Assembly: GCF_000305775.1 (NCBI RefSeq)
Contig: NC_018866.1
Coordinates: 310,001-374,000 of the forward strand
Source of the DNA: Dehalobacter sp. DCA
GTDB taxonomy: Bacteria; Bacillota; Desulfitobacteriia; Desulfitobacteriales; Syntrophobotulaceae
Reading direction: 5' to 3'
Length of the DNA: 64,000 bases
Below the pieces are notes generated by a model. It saw nothing but the letters and a program-made list of their open reading frames with translations. It did not search any database and was not told where the DNA came from. This document shows positions 29,797 through 40,055 of this stretch, piece by piece. The translations under genes and the position numbers were made by a program. Numbering within the stretch: the stretch's first letter is position 1; every line of letters begins with the position of its first letter.

Positions 29797-29885
29797 ATAA
29801 TTTTATGATTGAAAAGATACCTTGTCATTTCCTGCCTTTATCAAGCGTAATAATAAAAAAACAGCTTGTAAAGGGAGGATTTGAC

Positions 29886-31109
29886 TTGAACATAAAATGG
29901 AAGGAATTATGGGATGCTAATCCGGACATTTTCAGTGTATCCGGATGGGAAGAATGTCCAGAAGAAGTCAGGAAAGGTTGGCATCTGCCTTCCCAGTTTG
30001 ATTATTTCAGTGCCGGGGATATCAGTTTCAGAGTTGGAATCATCGCTGCGCAGGGAGTCTACAGGGAGGAAGACTTTCTTTTGGGCGGGATTCTGTGGGG
30101 AGGACATCTAGGAAATGGCAGCAGGACTTTGATTTATTATGTGGCAAAAGAATTTTCTCCTGTATTTTTAGGTGCGGTTTCTCAAATAGGAGGCATGCTG
30201 TTTGCCAGGACGGTTTTTTGGCGGGAAAAATTGACCCCAAATTTGTATGTTCTGGCAGAAAAAGATTACGATAAAGGTTTTTTTCGGTTGGATACAGGAG
30301 AACTGCGCCCCGGTTGGGAACACTGGCAAAGAGAATTAAATCCAGTGGCCTGGAATCATCTGACGGTGATCAACCACTATTTTGAAAGCCTGGCCAAGAG
30401 AAGAGTCCGGGCAGTATCCGAAAAGAACAAAATCACCTATTGCTGGGGAAATATTCAAATTGCCGAGTTTAAAAAGAAAGGGAACAAGTTTGAACTGTCT
30501 ACCAAAGTAAAATGGACCAGGAATAAAAATATTGCTTCCAAATTTCTAAAGTTGGGGTGGGTCGATTTCTCCGGAAATCTTAATGATGAATTTTGCAGAG
30601 CCATTAACGGGATACTGGAACTGCTGGAGAATATGGAGATAAATGGTAGCCTTGATTCCAGGGAATTATTAGATCTTAAGATAATCTATGACAGGGAATT
30701 CATCCCCCAATATTTTGGAAAGTACCTGGAAGTTCCCTGGTATCCAAGAGACTTCAGTGATTTGATTGAAAGCCGGCAACTGTATTTTTTCCAACGGGAT
30801 CAATCTATTAGGATTATTAAGCCTGTTCTGGAGAAACCATCGCTAAAAGTTGTACAAACGCTGCTGGTATTTTCAGCTTTTGAAAACTATGCGAAGCATC
30901 ATCAAGGTTTCCCGGGATATCCGCAACTGGAGTGGAACTACAAAATATTCCTTTTTTGCGAAGCCGATTACATGGAAGAATTGCGTCTGTGCCAATCCTG
31001 GCTGAAGCAGCCCGATAAATATCCATTGATCATCATGCCCAAAGAATGGCGGACGGAGGGCTTTAAAGGAGTAAAAGATAACTTCATTGCATTCGGCATG
31101 GATGCATAG
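29886..31109 (+). CDS. Unknown 407-aa protein
   Basis: I do not recognise this protein. It is soluble, with no signal peptide or membrane helix, and rich in aromatic residues (WEECPEEVRKGWHLPSQFDY, NHLTVINHYFESLAKRRVR). The N-terminal half (to about 170) looks beta-rich; a Lys-rich patch follows near residues 180-225. There are few cysteines and no nucleotide-binding motif. I take the TTG at 29886 as start because GGGAGG lies 7 nt upstream, whereas the longer frame from 29805 begins beside the phoU terminator without a ribosome site. thpR follows after about 48 bp. Confidence 0.75.
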   Translation: MNIKWKELWDANPDIFSVSGWEECPEEVRKGWHLPSQFDYFSAGDISFRVGIIAAQGVYREEDFLLGGILWGGHLGNGSRTLIYYVAKEFSPVFLGAVSQIGGMLFARTVFWREKLTPNLYVLAEKDYDKGFFRLDTGELRPGWEHWQRELNPVAWNHLTVINHYFESLAKRRVRAVSEKNKITYCWGNIQIAEFKKKGNKFELSTKVKWTRNKNIASKFLKLGWVDFSGNLNDEFCRAINGILELLENMEINGSLDSRELLDLKIIYDREFIPQYFGKYLEVPWYPRDFSDLIESRQLYFFQRDQSIRIIKPVLEKPSLKVVQTLLVFSAFENYAKHHQGFPGYPQLEWNYKIFLFCEADYMEELRLCQSWLKQPDKYPLIIMPKEWRTEGFKGVKDNFIAFGMDA

Positions 31110-32834: not shown

Positions 32835-32896
32835 GAGTTTTCATTCAGTATATACAAGGTACTAGAATCAATATGACGATATGGAAGGGATTATGG

Positions 32897-34171
32897 ATGG
32901 CAAAATTTCTAGAGTATCAAGGTAAGGAATGGCTTGCCAAAGCGGGAATACCCGTACCGAAGGGCAGGTCGGCATCTTCTCCGGAAGAAGCGCAGCAAGC
33001 GGCAGAATGGATTGGCAAGTCCGTAGCTGTCAAAGGTCAGGTCCAGGCAGGAGGACGAGGAAAAGCCGGTATTGTAAAACTGGTCGTGACTCCGTCCGAA
33101 GCTTCGGCAGCAGCAGCTGAAATACTGGCAAAGACAGTCAAAGGACTCCCTGTCAGGCAAGTTTTAATTGAGGAGAAACTGGCGATCAAAAAAGAATACT
33201 ATTGTTCATTTGTCATTAACAATGCAAGAGACGCCCGCTGCCCGATGCTGATGTTCAGCTCAGAAGGCGGTATGGATATTGAAAGTGTTCCTGAAGAACT
33301 AATTTTTAAGATGAATATCGACCCTATTTTTGGTCTGCAGATTTACGATGCGATCGATTTTTGTGTCCGAGCTGGCATTCCAAATAAAGAATTGAGTAAG
33401 TTTGCTTCTTTCCTGACGAAGCTGTCCCAAGTCTACAAAAAGTATGACTGCCAGACCCTGGAGATCAATCCGTTTGTCATGACGGAGGATGGAAGCCTGA
33501 TCTGTGCGGACTGCAAAATGGAGATTGATAACAGCTCTGTGGGCCGTCATCCGGAATTTGGCATTAAAATTGCCCGCGATTTGCCTGGTGAAGTCACCGA
33601 ACTCGATATGATCGGCTGGAGCATTGAAGAAACAGATGCCCGTGGAACCGGCTTCCTGATGAATATGGGTTATGACGAAGTAAGCCCCGGCTATATTGGC
33701 TATCACCCGATCGGCGGCGGTTCGGCGATGATGGGACTTGATGCGCTGAATCAGGTAGGACTCAAGCCTGCCAACTATGCCGATACGAGCGGCAATCCTG
33801 TTGGATCAAAAATCTATCGCGTTGCCAAGTGCGTACTATCGCAGCCCAATATTGACGGTTATCTTCTTGGCGGCTTTATGATGGCGAATCAGGAGCAATG
33901 GCACCATGCCAATGCGATTGTCAAAGTACTGTGGGAAGAGCTTCCGAAGAGGCCCGGCCTGCCTTGCGTTCTGTTACTCTGCGGCAATCGCGAGGATGAA
34001 TCCATGGAGATTCTACGCAAGGGTCTGGCAGAGCTGATGACTCCGGACGGAATTGGCAAAAGAATTGAAATATACGGAAAAGAGCATGTCACGGATACTA
34101 AATTTATTGGTCAAAGACTTCTGGCTCTAGCCAAAGAATACAGGGCAGAAAAAGATGCTCAAGGAAAGTAG
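32897..34171 (+). CDS. Acyl-CoA ligase beta subunit, SucC-like (possible malate-CoA ligase)
   Basis: A 424-aa ADP-forming acyl-CoA synthetase beta-type subunit. The N-terminal ATP-grasp domain is clear (FLEYQGKEWLAKAGIPVPKG, then VAVKGQVQAGGRGKAGIV, and EINPFVMTEDGSLICADCKME for the metal site), followed by the CoA-ligase flavodoxin-like domain (about 250-415, with GTGFLMNMGYDE and GGGSAMMGLDALN). It is longer than E. coli SucC (388 aa). It should pair with the alpha subunit encoded at 34576. Next to a CitE-type lyase and malic enzyme, malate rather than succinate is a plausible substrate. The ATG at 32897 follows GGAAGGG. Confidence 0.85.
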   Translation: MAKFLEYQGKEWLAKAGIPVPKGRSASSPEEAQQAAEWIGKSVAVKGQVQAGGRGKAGIVKLVVTPSEASAAAAEILAKTVKGLPVRQVLIEEKLAIKKEYYCSFVINNARDARCPMLMFSSEGGMDIESVPEELIFKMNIDPIFGLQIYDAIDFCVRAGIPNKELSKFASFLTKLSQVYKKYDCQTLEINPFVMTEDGSLICADCKMEIDNSSVGRHPEFGIKIARDLPGEVTELDMIGWSIEETDARGTGFLMNMGYDEVSPGYIGYHPIGGGSAMMGLDALNQVGLKPANYADTSGNPVGSKIYRVAKCVLSQPNIDGYLLGGFMMANQEQWHHANAIVKVLWEELPKRPGLPCVLLLCGNREDESMEILRKGLAELMTPDGIGKRIEIYGKEHVTDTKFIGQRLLALAKEYRAEKDAQGK

Positions 34172-34180
34172 GGAAATGCC

Positions 34181-34471
34181 ATGCTGGAAATTAAAGAAAA
34201 AAGTATTACCATAAGCATCGATACCAGCAAGTGTGACACATGTGAAACCAAAGCATGCGCAGCAGCTTGTAAAAAATATGCCAGAGGATTGCTTCAAATT
34301 GTTGACGGGAAACCATCCGTCGAGTATCTGAGCGCAGGGGAAGTTCTCCGGCTTGGAACAGAATGTCTGGCTTGTGAGATCGCCTGTAAGTTCGAAGGGA
34401 ATAAGGCTTTGACCATCGATGTTCCGATTACGGGTATTGATGTCTATCTAGCCAAACGCGGTTTACAATAG
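34181..34471 (+). CDS. Small ferredoxin-like 7-Cys protein
   Basis: A 96-aa protein with two cysteine clusters: Cys18, 21, 26 and 30 in CDTCETKACAAACKK, and Cys62, 65 and 69 in CLACEIACKFEG. The spacing resembles a two-cluster ferredoxin of the FixX/dicluster kind, but the usual prolines are absent and one of eight ligands is missing, so one cluster might be 3Fe-4S or lost. It is placed between the beta and alpha ligase subunits, 9 bp after the first, and so is surely co-transcribed. The role is unknown: electron transfer, redox sensing or a structural subunit of the ligase. Confidence 0.8.
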   Translation: MLEIKEKSITISIDTSKCDTCETKACAAACKKYARGLLQIVDGKPSVEYLSAGEVLRLGTECLACEIACKFEGNKALTIDVPITGIDVYLAKRGLQ

Positions 34472-34480
34472 TTTATTTAC

Positions 34481-34552
34481 ATATCAGAAAGTATAAATTA
34501 CTTTCTGATATATCTAAGTGCAGTAAAGGCTGTCACCAGCCAAGTTTCTTTA
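34481..34552 (+). repeat. Dispersed intergenic repeat, copy D
   Basis: Contains a perfect 13-bp hairpin (ATATCAGAAAGTA / TACTTTCTGATAT, loop TAAAT), then TATCTAAGTGCAGTAAAGGC and CACCAGCCAAGTTTCTTTAC. It sits inside the operon, between the ferredoxin-like and SucD-like genes. Confidence 0.85.
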
Positions 34553-34575: not shown

Positions 34576-35472
34576 ATGGGTATTTTAATCAGTAACCAGT
34601 CTAAAGTCATTATCCAGGGAATTACCGGCCGTGAAGGATCTGTAAGAACCAAATACATGAAAGAATATGGCACCAAAGTCATCGGCGGAACCAGCCCAGG
34701 AAAAAAAGGGGACGAGGTTCATGGCATCCCCGTCTATAATACGGTTAAGGAAATTGCCAGAGAACAGGGTGAGATTGACTTTAGCGTTATCTTTGTGCCG
34801 GGCAGTGTTCTGAAAACCGCTGTTTTTGAAGCTGCCGACGCGGGTGTCAAAAATATTATTCCGTGTGTTGAAGGAACACCCATCCATGATATTATGGAAA
34901 TGGTCGCTTATTGCAAGCTGAGAGGAACCCGCTTAATCGGCCCCGGATCCATTGGCATTTTGACACCGGGAGAAGCAGTCGTCGGCTGGCTTGGCGGCAA
35001 TGTCGAGTGGGCTAACAAGTTCTTCAAGAAAGGCAATATTGGTGTCTTTTCGCGCAGTGGCGGACAATCAGGGACCATCCCTTGGGTATTAAGAGAAGGT
35101 GGCTTCGGCGTAAGTACAGTCGTACATACCGGAACCGAACCTGTACTTGGAACATCTATGGCTGATTTGCTGCCCTTATTTGAAGCAGATCCTGAAACAA
35201 AAGGTGTAGCCGTCTATGCCGAGATCGGCAGCTCTCAGGAAGAGGAATGTGCCGATACTATTGCGGAAGGCAAATTCACAAAACCTTTTGTGATCTACGT
35301 GGCCGGAGCCTGGGCTCCCGAAGGCCAACGTTTTTCCCATGCTTCAAATATTGTGGAACGCGGACGTGGCTCAGCGAAGAGCAAAATTGAAGCGGTCCTT
35401 AAAGCGGGTGGTTTTGTCGCCGAAACGCCAATAGATATCCCGATTATTTTGAAGGAGAAAATTAAGGAATAA
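34576..35472 (+). CDS. Acyl-CoA ligase alpha subunit, SucD-like (possible malate-CoA ligase)
   Basis: A 298-aa partner of the 32897 product. The CoA-binding Rossmann domain starts VIIQGITGREGS, and the ligase domain has FSRSGGQSGTIPW and the histidine loop QRFSHASNIVERGRGSAKSK, where His255 corresponds to the phosphohistidine of SucD. The SHASNI loop differs from the GHAGAI of succinyl-CoA synthetase. It catalyses ATP-dependent formation of an acyl-CoA; the identity of the acid is inferred from neighbours only. The ATG follows GAGGGA. Confidence 0.86.
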   Translation: MGILISNQSKVIIQGITGREGSVRTKYMKEYGTKVIGGTSPGKKGDEVHGIPVYNTVKEIAREQGEIDFSVIFVPGSVLKTAVFEAADAGVKNIIPCVEGTPIHDIMEMVAYCKLRGTRLIGPGSIGILTPGEAVVGWLGGNVEWANKFFKKGNIGVFSRSGGQSGTIPWVLREGGFGVSTVVHTGTEPVLGTSMADLLPLFEADPETKGVAVYAEIGSSQEEECADTIAEGKFTKPFVIYVAGAWAPEGQRFSHASNIVERGRGSAKSKIEAVLKAGGFVAETPIDIPIILKEKIKE

Positions 35473-35569
35473 TGATTGATTCTTGGAATTAATATCTTTG
35501 CTTGATGAAAATAATCTTGGCATAGTTGCCAAAATTCTTAAAGGTAAAATAAAAGGAGGCATACTTAAA

Positions 35570-36451
35570 ATGGCTGTTATGAGATCTATTCTCTACGTAC
35601 CGGGAAATAACCCGAAGATGGTTGAGAAAGCGCCAAGCTTTCCTGCTGATATCATCACACTGGATCTGGAGGATTCCGTACCACCGGCTGAAAAGGAAAA
35701 TGCACGCAAAATTATTGCCGAGAATCTGAAATATGCCGGTTCCAATGGTTCCCAGATTTATGTCAGAATCAACAACTGGGAAACAGAATTAACCAACGAT
35801 GACCTTGAGGCTGTCGTTTGGGAAGGTCTTCATGGCGTAACGCTTGCCAAGACTGGACATCCTGATGATGTCAAACGTCTGGACTGGAAGCTCGAAGAGC
35901 TGGAGCGCCGCCGTGGTCTGGAAGTTGGTTCCATCAAAATTTCTATGCTGCTGGAAACAGCAAAAGGAATCATGAATGCGTATGAGTGCTGTATGGCTAG
36001 CAAACGTAACGTGAATGCTATTTTTGGCGCTGTAGATTATTGCCGCGACATGCGGATCAAACTAACCTCCGAAGCGAATGAGCAGCTGTGGGGACGCGCC
36101 AAAGTCGGTGTTGCCTGCCGTGCAGCCGGTATTGTCGCAATTGACGCACCGTTTGTTGCTTATCAGGATATTCCCGCTTTCGAAAAGAACGTTGCCGATG
36201 GCAAACAGATGGGCTATGAAGGCCGTATGATTATTCATCCGGGCCAGGTTGAGCCGTCCAACCGTCTGTATGCTCCGGATCCGGCCGATGTAGAATGGGC
36301 TAACGGCGTTGTCAAAGTGTTTGAAGAAGAGGGTATTGCCAAAGGAAAAGCAGCCGTATCCTACAACGGTAAAATGGTGGATACTCCCGTATACCTGAAT
36401 GCCAAAGATATTCTGGCTGCTCAGGCTGAGATTGAAGCGAAAGAAGCTTGA
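35570..36451 (+). CDS. CitE/HpcH-type CoA-ester lyase (possible malyl- or citramalyl-CoA lyase)
   Basis: A 293-aa TIM-barrel aldolase of the HpcH/HpaI-CitE family. Motifs: RSILYVPGNNPKMVEKA, DIITLDLEDSVPPAEKENAR (metal-binding acids), YVRINNW, SMLLETAKGIMNAYECC (metal Glu) and GRMIIHPGQVEPSNRLYAP. No citrate lyase alpha or gamma subunits are nearby, so a stand-alone lyase acting on malyl-CoA, citramalyl-CoA or a similar thioester is more likely than citrate lyase. The ATG at 35570 has AAAGGAGG upstream; the longer frame is discarded. The stop codon merges into repeat copy E. Confidence 0.85.
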   Translation: MAVMRSILYVPGNNPKMVEKAPSFPADIITLDLEDSVPPAEKENARKIIAENLKYAGSNGSQIYVRINNWETELTNDDLEAVVWEGLHGVTLAKTGHPDDVKRLDWKLEELERRRGLEVGSIKISMLLETAKGIMNAYECCMASKRNVNAIFGAVDYCRDMRIKLTSEANEQLWGRAKVGVACRAAGIVAIDAPFVAYQDIPAFEKNVADGKQMGYEGRMIIHPGQVEPSNRLYAPDPADVEWANGVVKVFEEEGIAKGKAAVSYNGKMVDTPVYLNAKDILAAQAEIEAKEA

Positions 36452-36801: not shown

Positions 36802-38058
36802 ATGTCCCGAATTAAAAACCTGCGTGAAGAGGCTTTGGCGTTCCACGCCGTAAGGCCTGGTAAACTTGAAGTAAAAGTAACGGTTTCGGCCAATGACAGG
36901 GACGATTTGACGCTCGCCTATTCCCCCGGAGTGGCCGAGCCTGTGAAAGAGATTGCGAAAGATTTAGCGAATCTCGATGTTTACACCAATCATGCCAACT
37001 ATGTCTGTATCGTTTCTGATGGAACAGCCATTCTCGGGCTTGGCAACCTTGGTCCAGCAGCGGCTATGCCTGTCATGGAAGGAAAAGCTCTTCTGTTTAA
37101 AGCCTTTGCCGACGTTGACGCATTCCCGATTTGTGTAAATACGAATGATATTGATAAAATTGTTGAGCTTGTCGAGTTAATAGCGCCGACCTTTGGCGGT
37201 GTTAATCTTGAGGATATCAAAGCTCCAGAATGTTTTGAAATTGAAGGAAAGTTAAAAGCCCGCAATATTTTCAAAGGCCCGATCTTCCATGATGATCAGC
37301 ATGGAACAGCTGTCGTTACTTTGGCGGGTCTTTTTAATGCGCTGAAAGTCGTCGGCAAGAGTATAGATGAAATCAAAGTCGTAACGAACGGCGCCGGAGC
37401 CGCCGGGATTGCAATCATCAAGCTGATGATGAGTATGGGACTGAAGAACGTTATCATGTGCGATACCAAAGGTGCGATCTATAAAGGACGCCCTGAAGGT
37501 ATGAATAAATATAAGGACGAAATCGCTGAAAAGACAAATTATGAAATGTGTAGAGGTAGCCTCAGAGATGCGATCAAGGGTGCGGACGTCTTTATCGGCG
37601 TATCGGCTCCAGATTCCATTGACGAAGAGATGATTAAATCCATGGCCAAAGATCCGATCGTCTTTGCTCAGGCCAATCCGATTCCGGAAATCTGGCCGAT
37701 TGAAAGAGCCCTCGATGCCGGCGCTGCTGTCATCTCGACTGGGCGCTCCGACGTTATCAATCAGATCAACAACGTTCTGGCTTTCCCGGGCATGTTTCGC
37801 GGTGCGATTGATGTCCGCGCAACCGATATCAACGATGCAATGAAAATTGCTGCCGCTCAAGCGATTGCCAACTGCGTTAAACCGGAAGAATTGTGTGCCG
37901 ACTACATCATCCCAAGTGCCTTTAATCCTGAAGTTGCCGCTGCTGTCGCTGCAGCAACAGCTAGAGCGGCAATTGAATCCGGTATTGCCAGAAATCCGAT
38001 TGATCCTGCGCTGGTTGCGGAGAATCTGAAGAAAAGACTGGCAAATCAGTATAAGTAG
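36802..38058 (+). CDS. Malic enzyme (malate dehydrogenase, decarboxylating)
   Basis: A 418-aa short-type malic enzyme converting malate to pyruvate and CO2 with NAD(P)H formation. It shows TLAYSPGVAEPVKEI, YVCIVSDGTAILGLGNLGP, VNLEDIKAPECFEIE, IFHDDQHGTAVVTLAG and the nucleotide-binding VTNGAGAAGIAII; cofactor preference is not decided by eye. The length is normal for bacterial enzymes. The ATG has GAGGAAG upstream. It is the last metabolic gene before the intron and has its own terminator. It probably shares malate with the preceding CoA-ligase/lyase genes. Confidence 0.95.
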   Translation: MSRIKNLREEALAFHAVRPGKLEVKVTVSANDRDDLTLAYSPGVAEPVKEIAKDLANLDVYTNHANYVCIVSDGTAILGLGNLGPAAAMPVMEGKALLFKAFADVDAFPICVNTNDIDKIVELVELIAPTFGGVNLEDIKAPECFEIEGKLKARNIFKGPIFHDDQHGTAVVTLAGLFNALKVVGKSIDEIKVVTNGAGAAGIAIIKLMMSMGLKNVIMCDTKGAIYKGRPEGMNKYKDEIAEKTNYEMCRGSLRDAIKGADVFIGVSAPDSIDEEMIKSMAKDPIVFAQANPIPEIWPIERALDAGAAVISTGRSDVINQINNVLAFPGMFRGAIDVRATDINDAMKIAAAQAIANCVKPEELCADYIIPSAFNPEVAAAVAAATARAAIESGIARNPIDPALVAENLKKRLANQYK

Positions 38059-38156: not shown

Positions 38157-40055
38157 GTGCGCCCGGCATGGGCAACAACTCGGCGGTGAGAGTCCGCTGC
38201 ACGCTTGGTAGTAGGAAGTGCTAGCCGAACGGCAAGGGTGTCCATCGTGAGGTGGAATCTAAAGGAAGCCGTAAGCAAAGTCCTGAACCGACGAACAGAA
38301 ACCGCATATAAGGCTGAATCAGGGTGGACGAGTTTGCTTAATAAAACAAAGTCCAATACTACCCGAACCCTGTACAGTAAATGCGGCGGTTACATGGGAT
38401 GAAGGTTGTTGTTCTTACCCGGGGAGATCTCATACCACGCTCCCGACAAGAGGGACGCATTCGACGACCCACAGGAGCAAACCGCGCAGTGATGTGTAGC
38501 TGAGGCATGAGAAGTCAGCAGAAGCTATAGTACCGCGGAAACGCGGGAAGGGCTGAACAGTAGTAGTCTTTTGAAGAAGGAAGAAGGTGGACGATGTGAA
38601 GAAGGCAGAATACGAGGGAAACCTTGGCTGCCGCCCGGAAGATAGGGTGGAACCCGAAGACAACGGCGGAGCGCGGAGCATCGTTGAACGAGAAACCAAG
38701 GAAAAAGACGGTGCAGTCGACCTAATGAAAAGACTTCTGGACAGAGAAAACCTGAACAGGGCTTTCAAAAGGGTTAAGTCAAACGGTGGAGCAGCAGGAG
38801 TCGACGGAATGACCGTGGATGAAATGCTGCCCTGGCTCAGGAAACACAGAGAGGAGTTGCTACAGAGTTTAGGAAACGGGATGTACAGGCCTCAACTGGT
38901 TAGGAGAGTAGAGATACCCAAACCGGATGGAGGAGTACGAAAACTTGGTGTGCCAACGGTCATTGATCGGATGGTGCAACAGGCATTGGTGCAGATATTG
39001 CAACCAATCTTTGAACCGCTGTTTTCGGAGGCAAGCTACGGCTATCGACCGGGGCGCAGCGCACAGCAAGCCATGAAGGAAGCGAAAGAGTACTACGAAC
39101 AGGGATATACCCGCGCAGCGGATATCGATCTGTCAAAATACTTCGATACGATGAATCATGAACTGCTGATGAATATAATACGCAAAGAAGTAAAAGATAA
39201 GCGGATTATAGACCTCATCAAGAAGTTTCTGAAAAGCGGAGTCATGGAGAATGGAGTGAAAAGCAAGACGGAGGAAGGCAGCCCACAGGGAGGCCCGTTA
39301 TCTCCGTTACTTTCGAATATCTACCTCAATGAATTCGACAAGGAAATGGAAAGACGGGGGCACAAGCATTTGCGATACGCGGATGACATTGCTGTCTACA
39401 CCAAGAGCCGCAGAGCAGCAGAACGTGTATTAGAAAGCTGTAAGCAGTACCTTGAGAAGAAACTAAAGCTGAAAGTGAACTCGGAAAAGAGTAAAGCGGG
39501 ATCACCGCTGAAGCTTAAGTTCCTTGGCTTTGCCTTGTACAGGACGGGCAAAGGTACGGGAATACGGGTGCATGAAAAGTCAATGAAGAAATTCAAGGAA
39601 AAGCTCAAAGGCATCACAAAACGGAATCGCGGAAGGGCCATTCAACAGATTCTGAAGGAACTGAAGCTATAGTACAACGGGGTGGCTTAATTATTACGCT
39701 ATTGCCGGTATGAAGAGCAGAATTCAGGAACTGAACAGGTGGCTGAAACGACGGATACGGATGTATATCTGGAAGCAGTGGAAGAAACCAAAAACCCGAA
39801 TCGGGAACTTGATAGCACTCGGCATGTCGGTTTACTGGGCACACAAGAATGGGTACACTGGCAAAGGCTACTGGAGAGTAGCCGGGAGCGGGATACTTAA
39901 TCATACGTTGACTGACAAATACCTCGAATCCCTCGGCTATGATGACATAGCCAAGAAATACGAGGTACTGCACTTAAACTATTGAACCGCCGTACGCGGA
40001 ACCGCACATACGGTGGTGTGAGAGGCCGGGGGCGAGACGCCCCCTCCTACTCGAT
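38157..40055 (+). mobile_element. Group II intron
   Basis: The 5' end GTGCGCCCGGCATGGGC has the GUGYG start of group II introns, and about 430 nt of ribozyme domains I-III precede the maturase ORF. Downstream of the ORF, GAACCGCCGTACGCGG and CCGCACATACGGTGG form a domain V-like hairpin, and GGGGGCGAGACGCCCCC a domain VI-like one, with the 3' end near CTCGAT (an AY end). Total length about 1.9 kb. The boundaries are approximate, especially at the 3' side. The insertion site right behind an intrinsic terminator is typical of class IIC introns. Confidence 0.82.
38587..39985 (+). pseudogene. ltrA: Group II intron reverse transcriptase/maturase, frameshifted
   Basis: The intron-encoded protein in two frames. 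Part 1 (38587-39672, GTG start) holds the reverse transcriptase domain with ASYGYRPGRSAQQAM, EGSPQGGPLSPLLSNIYL-type motif and the catalytic LRYADDIAVY. Part 2 (from about 39671, in the next frame, to 39985) continues with GWLNYYAIAGMKSRIQELNR and the maturase (X) domain to the end. Joining needs a +1 shift at about 39667-39671, so one extra base is present. No endonuclease domain is seen. The catalytic residues are intact, but the maturase domain would not be made from one frame. Confidence 0.85.

Follow-up and report, generated by a model that had tools for sequence, protein, structure and literature searches.

A probable iron-sulfur subunit in a distinct clade of ADP-forming acyl-CoA ligases

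A 64,000-nucleotide stretch of the genome of Dehalobacter sp. DCA (NCBI RefSeq assembly GCF_000305775.1, contig NC_018866.1, positions 310,001 to 374,000 of the forward strand; the window) contains a gene for a small ferredoxin-like protein between the genes for the beta and alpha subunits of an acyl-CoA ligase. A preliminary description of the locus stated that no known ADP-forming acyl-CoA synthetase needs an iron-sulfur (Fe-S) subunit. This agrees with searches of both sequences and the open-licence literature: no Fe-S protein was found by sequence among solved SCS, CCS and ACLY relatives, and no Fe-S or ferredoxin domain on citryl-CoA synthetase was found in the open-licence literature. 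The locus raises the question of whether the small protein belongs to the ligase and, if so, what a cluster would do there.

The small gene and its conservation

The 96-residue reading frame with Cys18/21/26/30 and Cys62/65/69 was found exactly as previously claimed (Table 1). It starts 9 nt past the stop codon of the SucC-like beta gene, and the SucD-like alpha gene begins 104 nt past its end. The ATG codons at 32897 and 35570 were taken as the starts of the beta and lyase genes; the beta ORF opens at 32873, and the lyase start lies inside the ORF that opens at 35483.

Table 1. Coordinates of the operon genes and of motifs in the small protein
Feature	Position	Strand	Evidence
Beta subunit, ATP-grasp, divergent succinyl-CoA-synthetase/citryl-CoA-synthetase-like, 424 aa	32897..34171	+	PF08442 1.7e-51
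Proposed Fe-S (gamma) subunit, ferredoxin-like 7-Cys protein, 96 aa	34181..34471	+	ORF, orthologues, ferredoxin-type model
Cys motif 1, C18-x2-C21-x4-C26-x3-C30	34232..34270	+	36/36 invariant
Basic insert K31-[KT]-[YF]-A34-R35 after Cys30, 7-Cys clade only	34271..34285	+	core comparison
Gly59, where motif 2 lacks its Cys I	34355..34357	+	core comparison
Cys motif 2, C62-x2-C65-x3-C69	34364..34387	+	36/36 invariant
Alpha subunit (CoA-binding, Ligase_CoA), phosphohistidine-type motif FSHAS	34576..35472	+	PF02629 2.6e-22, PF00549 4.4e-08
CitE-like acyl-CoA C-C lyase, probable malyl-CoA lyase	35570..36451	+	PF03328 5.7e-44
NAD(P)-dependent malic enzyme	36802..38058	+	PF00390/PF03949; present in most long loci

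The translation has seven cysteines, with a spacing of 2-4-3 in motif 1, rather than the two complete CxxCxxCxxxC motifs of a 2[4Fe-4S] ferredoxin, and no proline stands behind Cys30 or Cys69. Matches to Fer4-type profiles were below the Pfam gathering scores (Fer4_7, 21.2 against 27, E = 0.0004). The closed genome (3,069,953 bases) holds no second copy of the small gene, and a second copy was dropped as an explanation; no relatives of the small protein were found among viral contigs. Between the small gene and the alpha gene (34481-34511) lies a perfect palindrome, ATATCAGAAAGTA-TAAAT-TACTTTCTGATAT, which may be an operator, a processing site or a small dispersed repeat. Its core occurs three times in the genome, where a reversed control pattern is absent, and a second genome of the genus has it too.

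Orthologues of the small protein, 58-93% identical to it, were found in about 48 of 199 related genomes. With beta as the query in the same genomes, the small gene adjoined every one of the 47 full-length betas with at least 62% identity, within about 300 bases. Partial betas lacking the small gene were fragments outside these 47; two (G013:C9 and G018:C10) are apparently at contig ends, and a third (G033:C13) adjoins an exceptionally long frame, suggestive of a stretch of N. As a control, 20 other SucC-like beta/alpha pairs (32-37% identity) were sampled, none of which has the small gene. The order beta, Fe-S, alpha, lyase was kept in all Bacillota loci that were long enough, with the malic enzyme next in most; among the loci read from named species were those of Candidatus Dichloromethanomonas, Desulfosporosinus and a Desulfitobacterium MAG. 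None of the seven cysteines varies across 36 distinct proteins, and dN/dS was about 0.08-0.12 over larger distances, where it could be computed, within-genus dS being too small for such a judgement.

The small ORF is real, and its adjacency to the ligase genes is more than chance, which was rejected on the 47 of 47 count. The preliminary description had proposed that a conserved trio with invariant cysteines in other genomes would make the link to the ligase real. Both were found: the order is kept wherever a contig is long enough, the small gene is present in every homologous cluster, and natural fusions of beta and the Fe-S domain (below) likewise indicate that it belongs to the ligase. In one locus (L077 6722-7975, genome G094) the beta gene is interrupted near codon 80 by an in-frame TAG, possibly reflecting a pseudogene or a sequencing error, and the Fe-S and alpha genes are intact. 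The trio occurs twice in the bin of MAG SKS1.bin106 (G060; L043 and L056), which could be a mixed bin.

Fused and eight-cysteine relatives

The distribution was sampled among Bacillota relatives and in candidate phylum WOR-3, where 12 of 147 genomes carry the domain. All twelve encode it in a single ORF of 517-570 aa, as beta followed by the Fe-S domain at the C-terminus. The linker and both parts are conserved, and a frameshift or assembly artefact was rejected as the origin of the fusion, given the conserved linker residues in 12 genomes.

The WOR-3 fusions, and the separate genes of two other Bacillota (G190 and G420), have all eight ferredoxin cysteines in the ferredoxin-type set CxxCx4CxxxC...CxxCxxCxxxC. 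A cysteine stands in these relatives where Gly59 stands in the small protein, giving a full CxxCxxCxxxC second motif. The earlier claim that one ligand and the usual prolines are missing was borne out and could be refined: the ligand that is lacking is the first cysteine (Cys I) of motif 2, because the eight-cysteine relatives have a cysteine at this position. Among cores gathered with a pattern that requires the seven cysteines, which therefore bear on Gly59 and the basic insert only (invariance of the cysteines rests on the 36 proteins), Gly59 was found in 35 of 35 distinct seven-cysteine cores and cysteine in 14 of 14 eight-cysteine cores; K31, A34 and R35 were present in all 35 of the former and none of the 14 latter. 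Gly59, the insert and the CitE-type operon are perfectly linked, which suggests that the cluster of the malate branch has been altered, but the linkage probably reflects a single evolutionary event.

In the usual ferredoxin wiring, Cys30, Cys62 and Cys65 would share one cluster. By this analogy, the putative cluster held by these three residues would be the one short of a ligand, and we infer that the small protein would bind one [4Fe-4S] cluster and a second at a three-cysteine site, as a [3Fe-4S] or labile [4Fe-4S] cluster.

In a tree of 40 betas, a single branch (95/94) separates all 20 that are associated with an Fe-S partner from the rest, with the label changing once, the G420 beta forming a long branch whose exact place is unsure. 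Betas with an Fe-S partner form one clade, and, judged from the constant gene adjacency and the fusion, these ATP-linked beta/alpha ligases, which would activate malate or citrate, very probably carry a previously undescribed Fe-S subunit.

Ligase family, lyase neighbours and probable substrate

PF08442, PF02629 and PF00549 were all matched above their gathering scores, which places the enzyme in the SCS-type ADP-forming acyl-CoA synthetase superfamily, and the alpha translation reads GQRFSHAS, a phosphohistidine-type motif by sequence. Beta scored 219 against a curated cut-off of 375.6 (TIGR01016) and 239.7 against 370 (NF001913) with the succinate-CoA ligase models, and 170.9 against 604 with the malate-CoA ligase MtkA model (NF010647); alpha scored 259.6 against 353.2 (TIGR01019, succinate-CoA ligase). 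As the curated cut-offs of both types were missed, the ligase was filed under neither succinate-CoA ligase nor MtkA. Beta also has weak similarity to a citrate-binding domain (PF16114) and aligns with citryl-CoA synthetase 6hxq.

The gene next to alpha was informative about the substrate. In the window it encodes a protein with the HpcH/HpaI domain (PF03328, 150.5 bits over 25) that falls below the cut-off of the citrate lyase CitE equivalog (TIGR01588, 205.8 against 443.4) and whose best solved relative is malyl-CoA/beta-methylmalyl-CoA lyase 5ugr (E = 1e-35). A CitE-like lyase follows alpha in those seven-cysteine Bacillota loci that reach that far. In the G190 and WOR-3 loci the neighbour is a citryl-CoA lyase above the NCBIfam cut-off (NF004869/NF004866; 285.7 against 212 in L074, 259.4 against 245 in L059 and 286.3 against 212 in L109), and in G420 it is an HMG-CoA-lyase-like lyase, also above cut-off. 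One WOR-3 contig (L112), read beyond the frame adjoining alpha, instead has aconitase-family and isocitrate-dehydrogenase-like genes there, and another contig (L115) shows no lyase within its 4.3 kb. The G420 locus (L075, 804-17914) holds an apparent catabolic cluster with a TctABC-like transporter, an aconitase/IPMI-family hydratase, the Fe-S ligase, the HMG-CoA-lyase-like lyase and MmgE/PrpD-like proteins. Wherever it could be read, the gene next to alpha encodes an acyl-CoA C-C lyase, and the common substrate is therefore probably a hydroxy-di- or tricarboxylate.

Malate is the best guess for the window because of the CitE-like lyase and malic enzyme, the presence of the operon in genome G010 and genus g39, and the published malyl-CoA pathway. 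Syntrophobotulus glycolicus and Moorella ferment glyoxylate via this pathway (PMC8092247, PMC6313629); G010 is taken to be S. glycolicus and g39 to be Moorella, so that the operon occurs in genomes assigned to both, whereas those papers name no Fe-S subunit in the pathway. From the operon and published host physiology, the ligase of the window is probably a malate-CoA ligase and not the annotated succinate-CoA ligase. Candidatus Dichloromethanomonas elyunquensis strain RM is reported to be without a canonical gene for malyl-CoA lyase (PMC8092247), and the operon lyase is a candidate for it. The full ligase-FeS-lyase-malic enzyme operon was found in this strain (L034, 8717-13692).

Published data on related hosts bear on the role of the operon. 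In Desulfitobacterium hafniense DCB-2, ACL21108-21112 are listed as malic enzyme, 'citryl-CoA lyase', SCS alpha, 'hypothetical protein' and SCS beta (PMC9888536, Table 1), and all rise 5-30-fold in pyruvate-only culture relative to five respiratory conditions (PMC9888536). Because this order matches that of the window's operon, the 'hypothetical protein' is very probably an orthologue of the small ORF. The pyruvate-only culture also shows higher levels of a DUF224 protein and an FAD-linked oxidase, which may together make up a glycolate oxidase (PMC9888536). No glcD-like glycolate oxidase was found in the window's own genome at 1e-30, and glycolate oxidation or fermentation is an unlikely role there.

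Models of Dehalobacter CF assign p393 and p395 to succinate:CoA ligase and p397 to malic enzyme (PMC4751268); the small ORF would be p394. The operon published as the Dehalobacter succinate:CoA ligase is reassigned here to probable malyl-CoA chemistry. How Dehalobacter makes glycine and serine is a recognised gap (PMC4751268), and alanine-glyoxylate aminotransferase ranks in the top 10% of proteins by expression level in related strains (PMC12542780). We hypothesize that conversion of malate via malyl-CoA to glyoxylate and acetyl-CoA, followed by transamination, fills this gap. If the pathway runs in the cleavage direction, glyoxylate would be a candidate source of glycine and serine. If the hypothesis is right, the oxidative half-cycle to succinate would be left without the ligase annotated for it, except in the case of a promiscuous enzyme.

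The predicted cluster and its role

The AlphaFold2 model of the small protein (pLDDT 79.6) has its elements in ferredoxin-type order. VIA-align placed ferredoxin modules on top, with moderate matches to CpI hydrogenase (Z 6.4, 86 residues, 4.5 Å) and ABCE1 (Z 4.9, 64 residues, 3.2 Å). Foldseek returned no match below 0.001 (best E = 0.09), a single-sequence search against solved structures found none, and a profile search found only an NrfC-type protein (E = 0.015). The beta fold of the fused WOR-3 model matched 3ufx (Z 31.0, 372 residues, 4.8 Å) and 6hxq (Z 27.8, 379 residues, 5.8 Å), and as modelled the fused protein is clearly an SCS/citryl-CoA-synthetase beta.

The explanation we consider probable is that the small protein is an obligate third, ferredoxin-fold Fe-S subunit of a distinct clade of hydroxy-di/tricarboxylate ADP-forming CoA-ligases, the ligase here acting on malate and the cluster being structural or redox-regulatory. 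The predicted subunit would bind the C-terminal end of beta; the ligase would interconvert malate, CoA and ATP with malyl-CoA, ADP and Pi, the CitE-like lyase would interconvert malyl-CoA with acetyl-CoA and glyoxylate, and malic enzyme would connect malate with pyruvate. The cluster would gate or stabilise the ligase according to redox state, and a regulatory role at the acetyl-CoA node, beside pyruvate synthase, would make sense. The redox-responsive ligase suggested in the preliminary description is plausible. Counting against a third subunit, the citryl-CoA synthetase of Hydrogenobacter and ATP-citrate lyase work without an Fe-S part. To our knowledge malate thiokinase (MtkAB) also works without one, and we know of no Fe-S subunit associated with it. 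Catalysis by the cluster is unlikely because these three enzymes perform such reactions without it, and by analogy its role is probably structural or redox-regulatory. ABCE1 (RLI) is an ATP-using enzyme with a two-cluster ferredoxin-like domain without a known redox reaction. It shares ATP use, such a domain and the fold match noted above, and serves as a precedent only, its ATPase fold and function being unrelated to the ligase.

As in SucCD (ADP-forming), an ATP-grasp beta is paired, in the same gene order, with a CoA-binding alpha whose sequence has a phosphohistidine-type motif, but the present ligase scores under the SCS cut-offs, has an extra Fe-S subunit or domain and a fixed linkage to an acyl-CoA C-C lyase, and its betas form a clade apart from the sampled SCS-like betas. 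With CcsAB and citryl-CoA lyase of Hydrogenobacter and Aquifex it shares a two-step scheme in which a hydroxy-polycarboxylate is activated and then cleaved; the CcsAB-like arrangement of ligase and citryl-CoA lyase is present in the WOR-3 and G190 loci, and 6hxq is among the closest solved structures. CcsAB, however, is known as a two-subunit enzyme without Fe-S, whereas here there is an Fe-S domain, either as a separate protein or, in WOR-3, as part of beta, and the lyase encoded in the window is CitE-like rather than a citryl-CoA lyase. MtkAB and malyl-CoA lyase of the serine cycle probably share the reaction and the pathway logic, but the window's ligase scores below the cut-off of the MtkA model (171 against 604 bits).

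Other explanations were weighed against the third-subunit reading. The Fe-S subunit could carry electrons, with the ligase, perhaps together with the lyase, malic enzyme or pyruvate synthase, docking to or exchanging electrons with ferredoxin-dependent partners. The best structural matches are indeed electron-transfer ferredoxin modules, the hosts are strict anaerobes as far as they are named, and the reactions adjoin the acetyl-CoA node used by pyruvate synthase. However, both the ligase and the lyase reaction are redox-neutral, neither the trio nor the fusion contains a conserved oxidoreductase subunit, and a two-cluster wire is less likely because the seven-cysteine clade has lost a cluster ligand, all of which makes this explanation unlikely. 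The unrecognised electron-transfer step of the preliminary description was set aside as unsupported: the trio has no conserved redox partner, the reactions require no redox chemistry, and a like product is made by homologous ligases that have no cluster. It also appears improbable that the three-cysteine cluster has an open iron site at which, in the manner of aconitase, malate or some other anion is bound to deliver substrate or exert allosteric control, with K31-x-x-A-R35 helping to hold the anion. The loss of Cys59 does coincide with the gain of the basic insert (35 of 35 against 0 of 14), which follows Cys30, a residue that would ligate the same cluster, and both accompany the change of lyase from citryl-CoA or HMG-CoA type to CitE-like; yet these traits probably arose once, which makes the coincidence a single event, and homologues with a four-cysteine cluster act on similar substrates.

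The enzyme might instead be a succinyl-CoA synthetase, as annotated in Dehalobacter CF (p393 and p395; PMC4751268), with an Fe-S accessory protein. Its beta is the sole SucC-like match in its own genome at E<=1e-20, and T. aquaticus SucC scores highest among the solved structures. Against this, its scores of 219-260 compare with SCS equivalog cut-offs of 336-376 bits, the operon with a C-C lyase is fixed, and the genomes of several relatives hold both an Fe-S-clade beta and other SucC-like betas, so this assignment is quite improbable. Least credible is a structural clip on beta whose cysteines bind another metal or no Fe-S cluster: the sub-threshold Fer4 matches and the missing ligand would fit, but the eight-cysteine relatives keep the full ferredoxin-type set and the seven cysteines are invariant.

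An extension of the third-subunit reading, which we regard as possible rather than probable, is that the whole clade of malate-, citrate- and HMG/citramalate-type ligases consists of Fe-S enzymes in which a redox-reporting cluster switches the ligase, matching the making or cleaving of acetyl-CoA to reduced ferredoxin; loss of a ligand in the malate branch would have turned the cluster there into a labile or ligand-binding site. As far as has been searched, the ligase with its Fe-S subunit would be the first iron-sulfur NDP-forming acyl-CoA synthetase, and split and fused natural forms exist for structural work.

Two further features of the window were recorded. A 434-aa protein (29805-31109) has no Pfam match at E 10, and an ORF similar to it adjoins phoU in G010 and in G003. 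Directly downstream of the malic enzyme gene, positions 38587-39672 encode a group II intron reverse transcriptase/maturase (TIGR04416, above cut-off).
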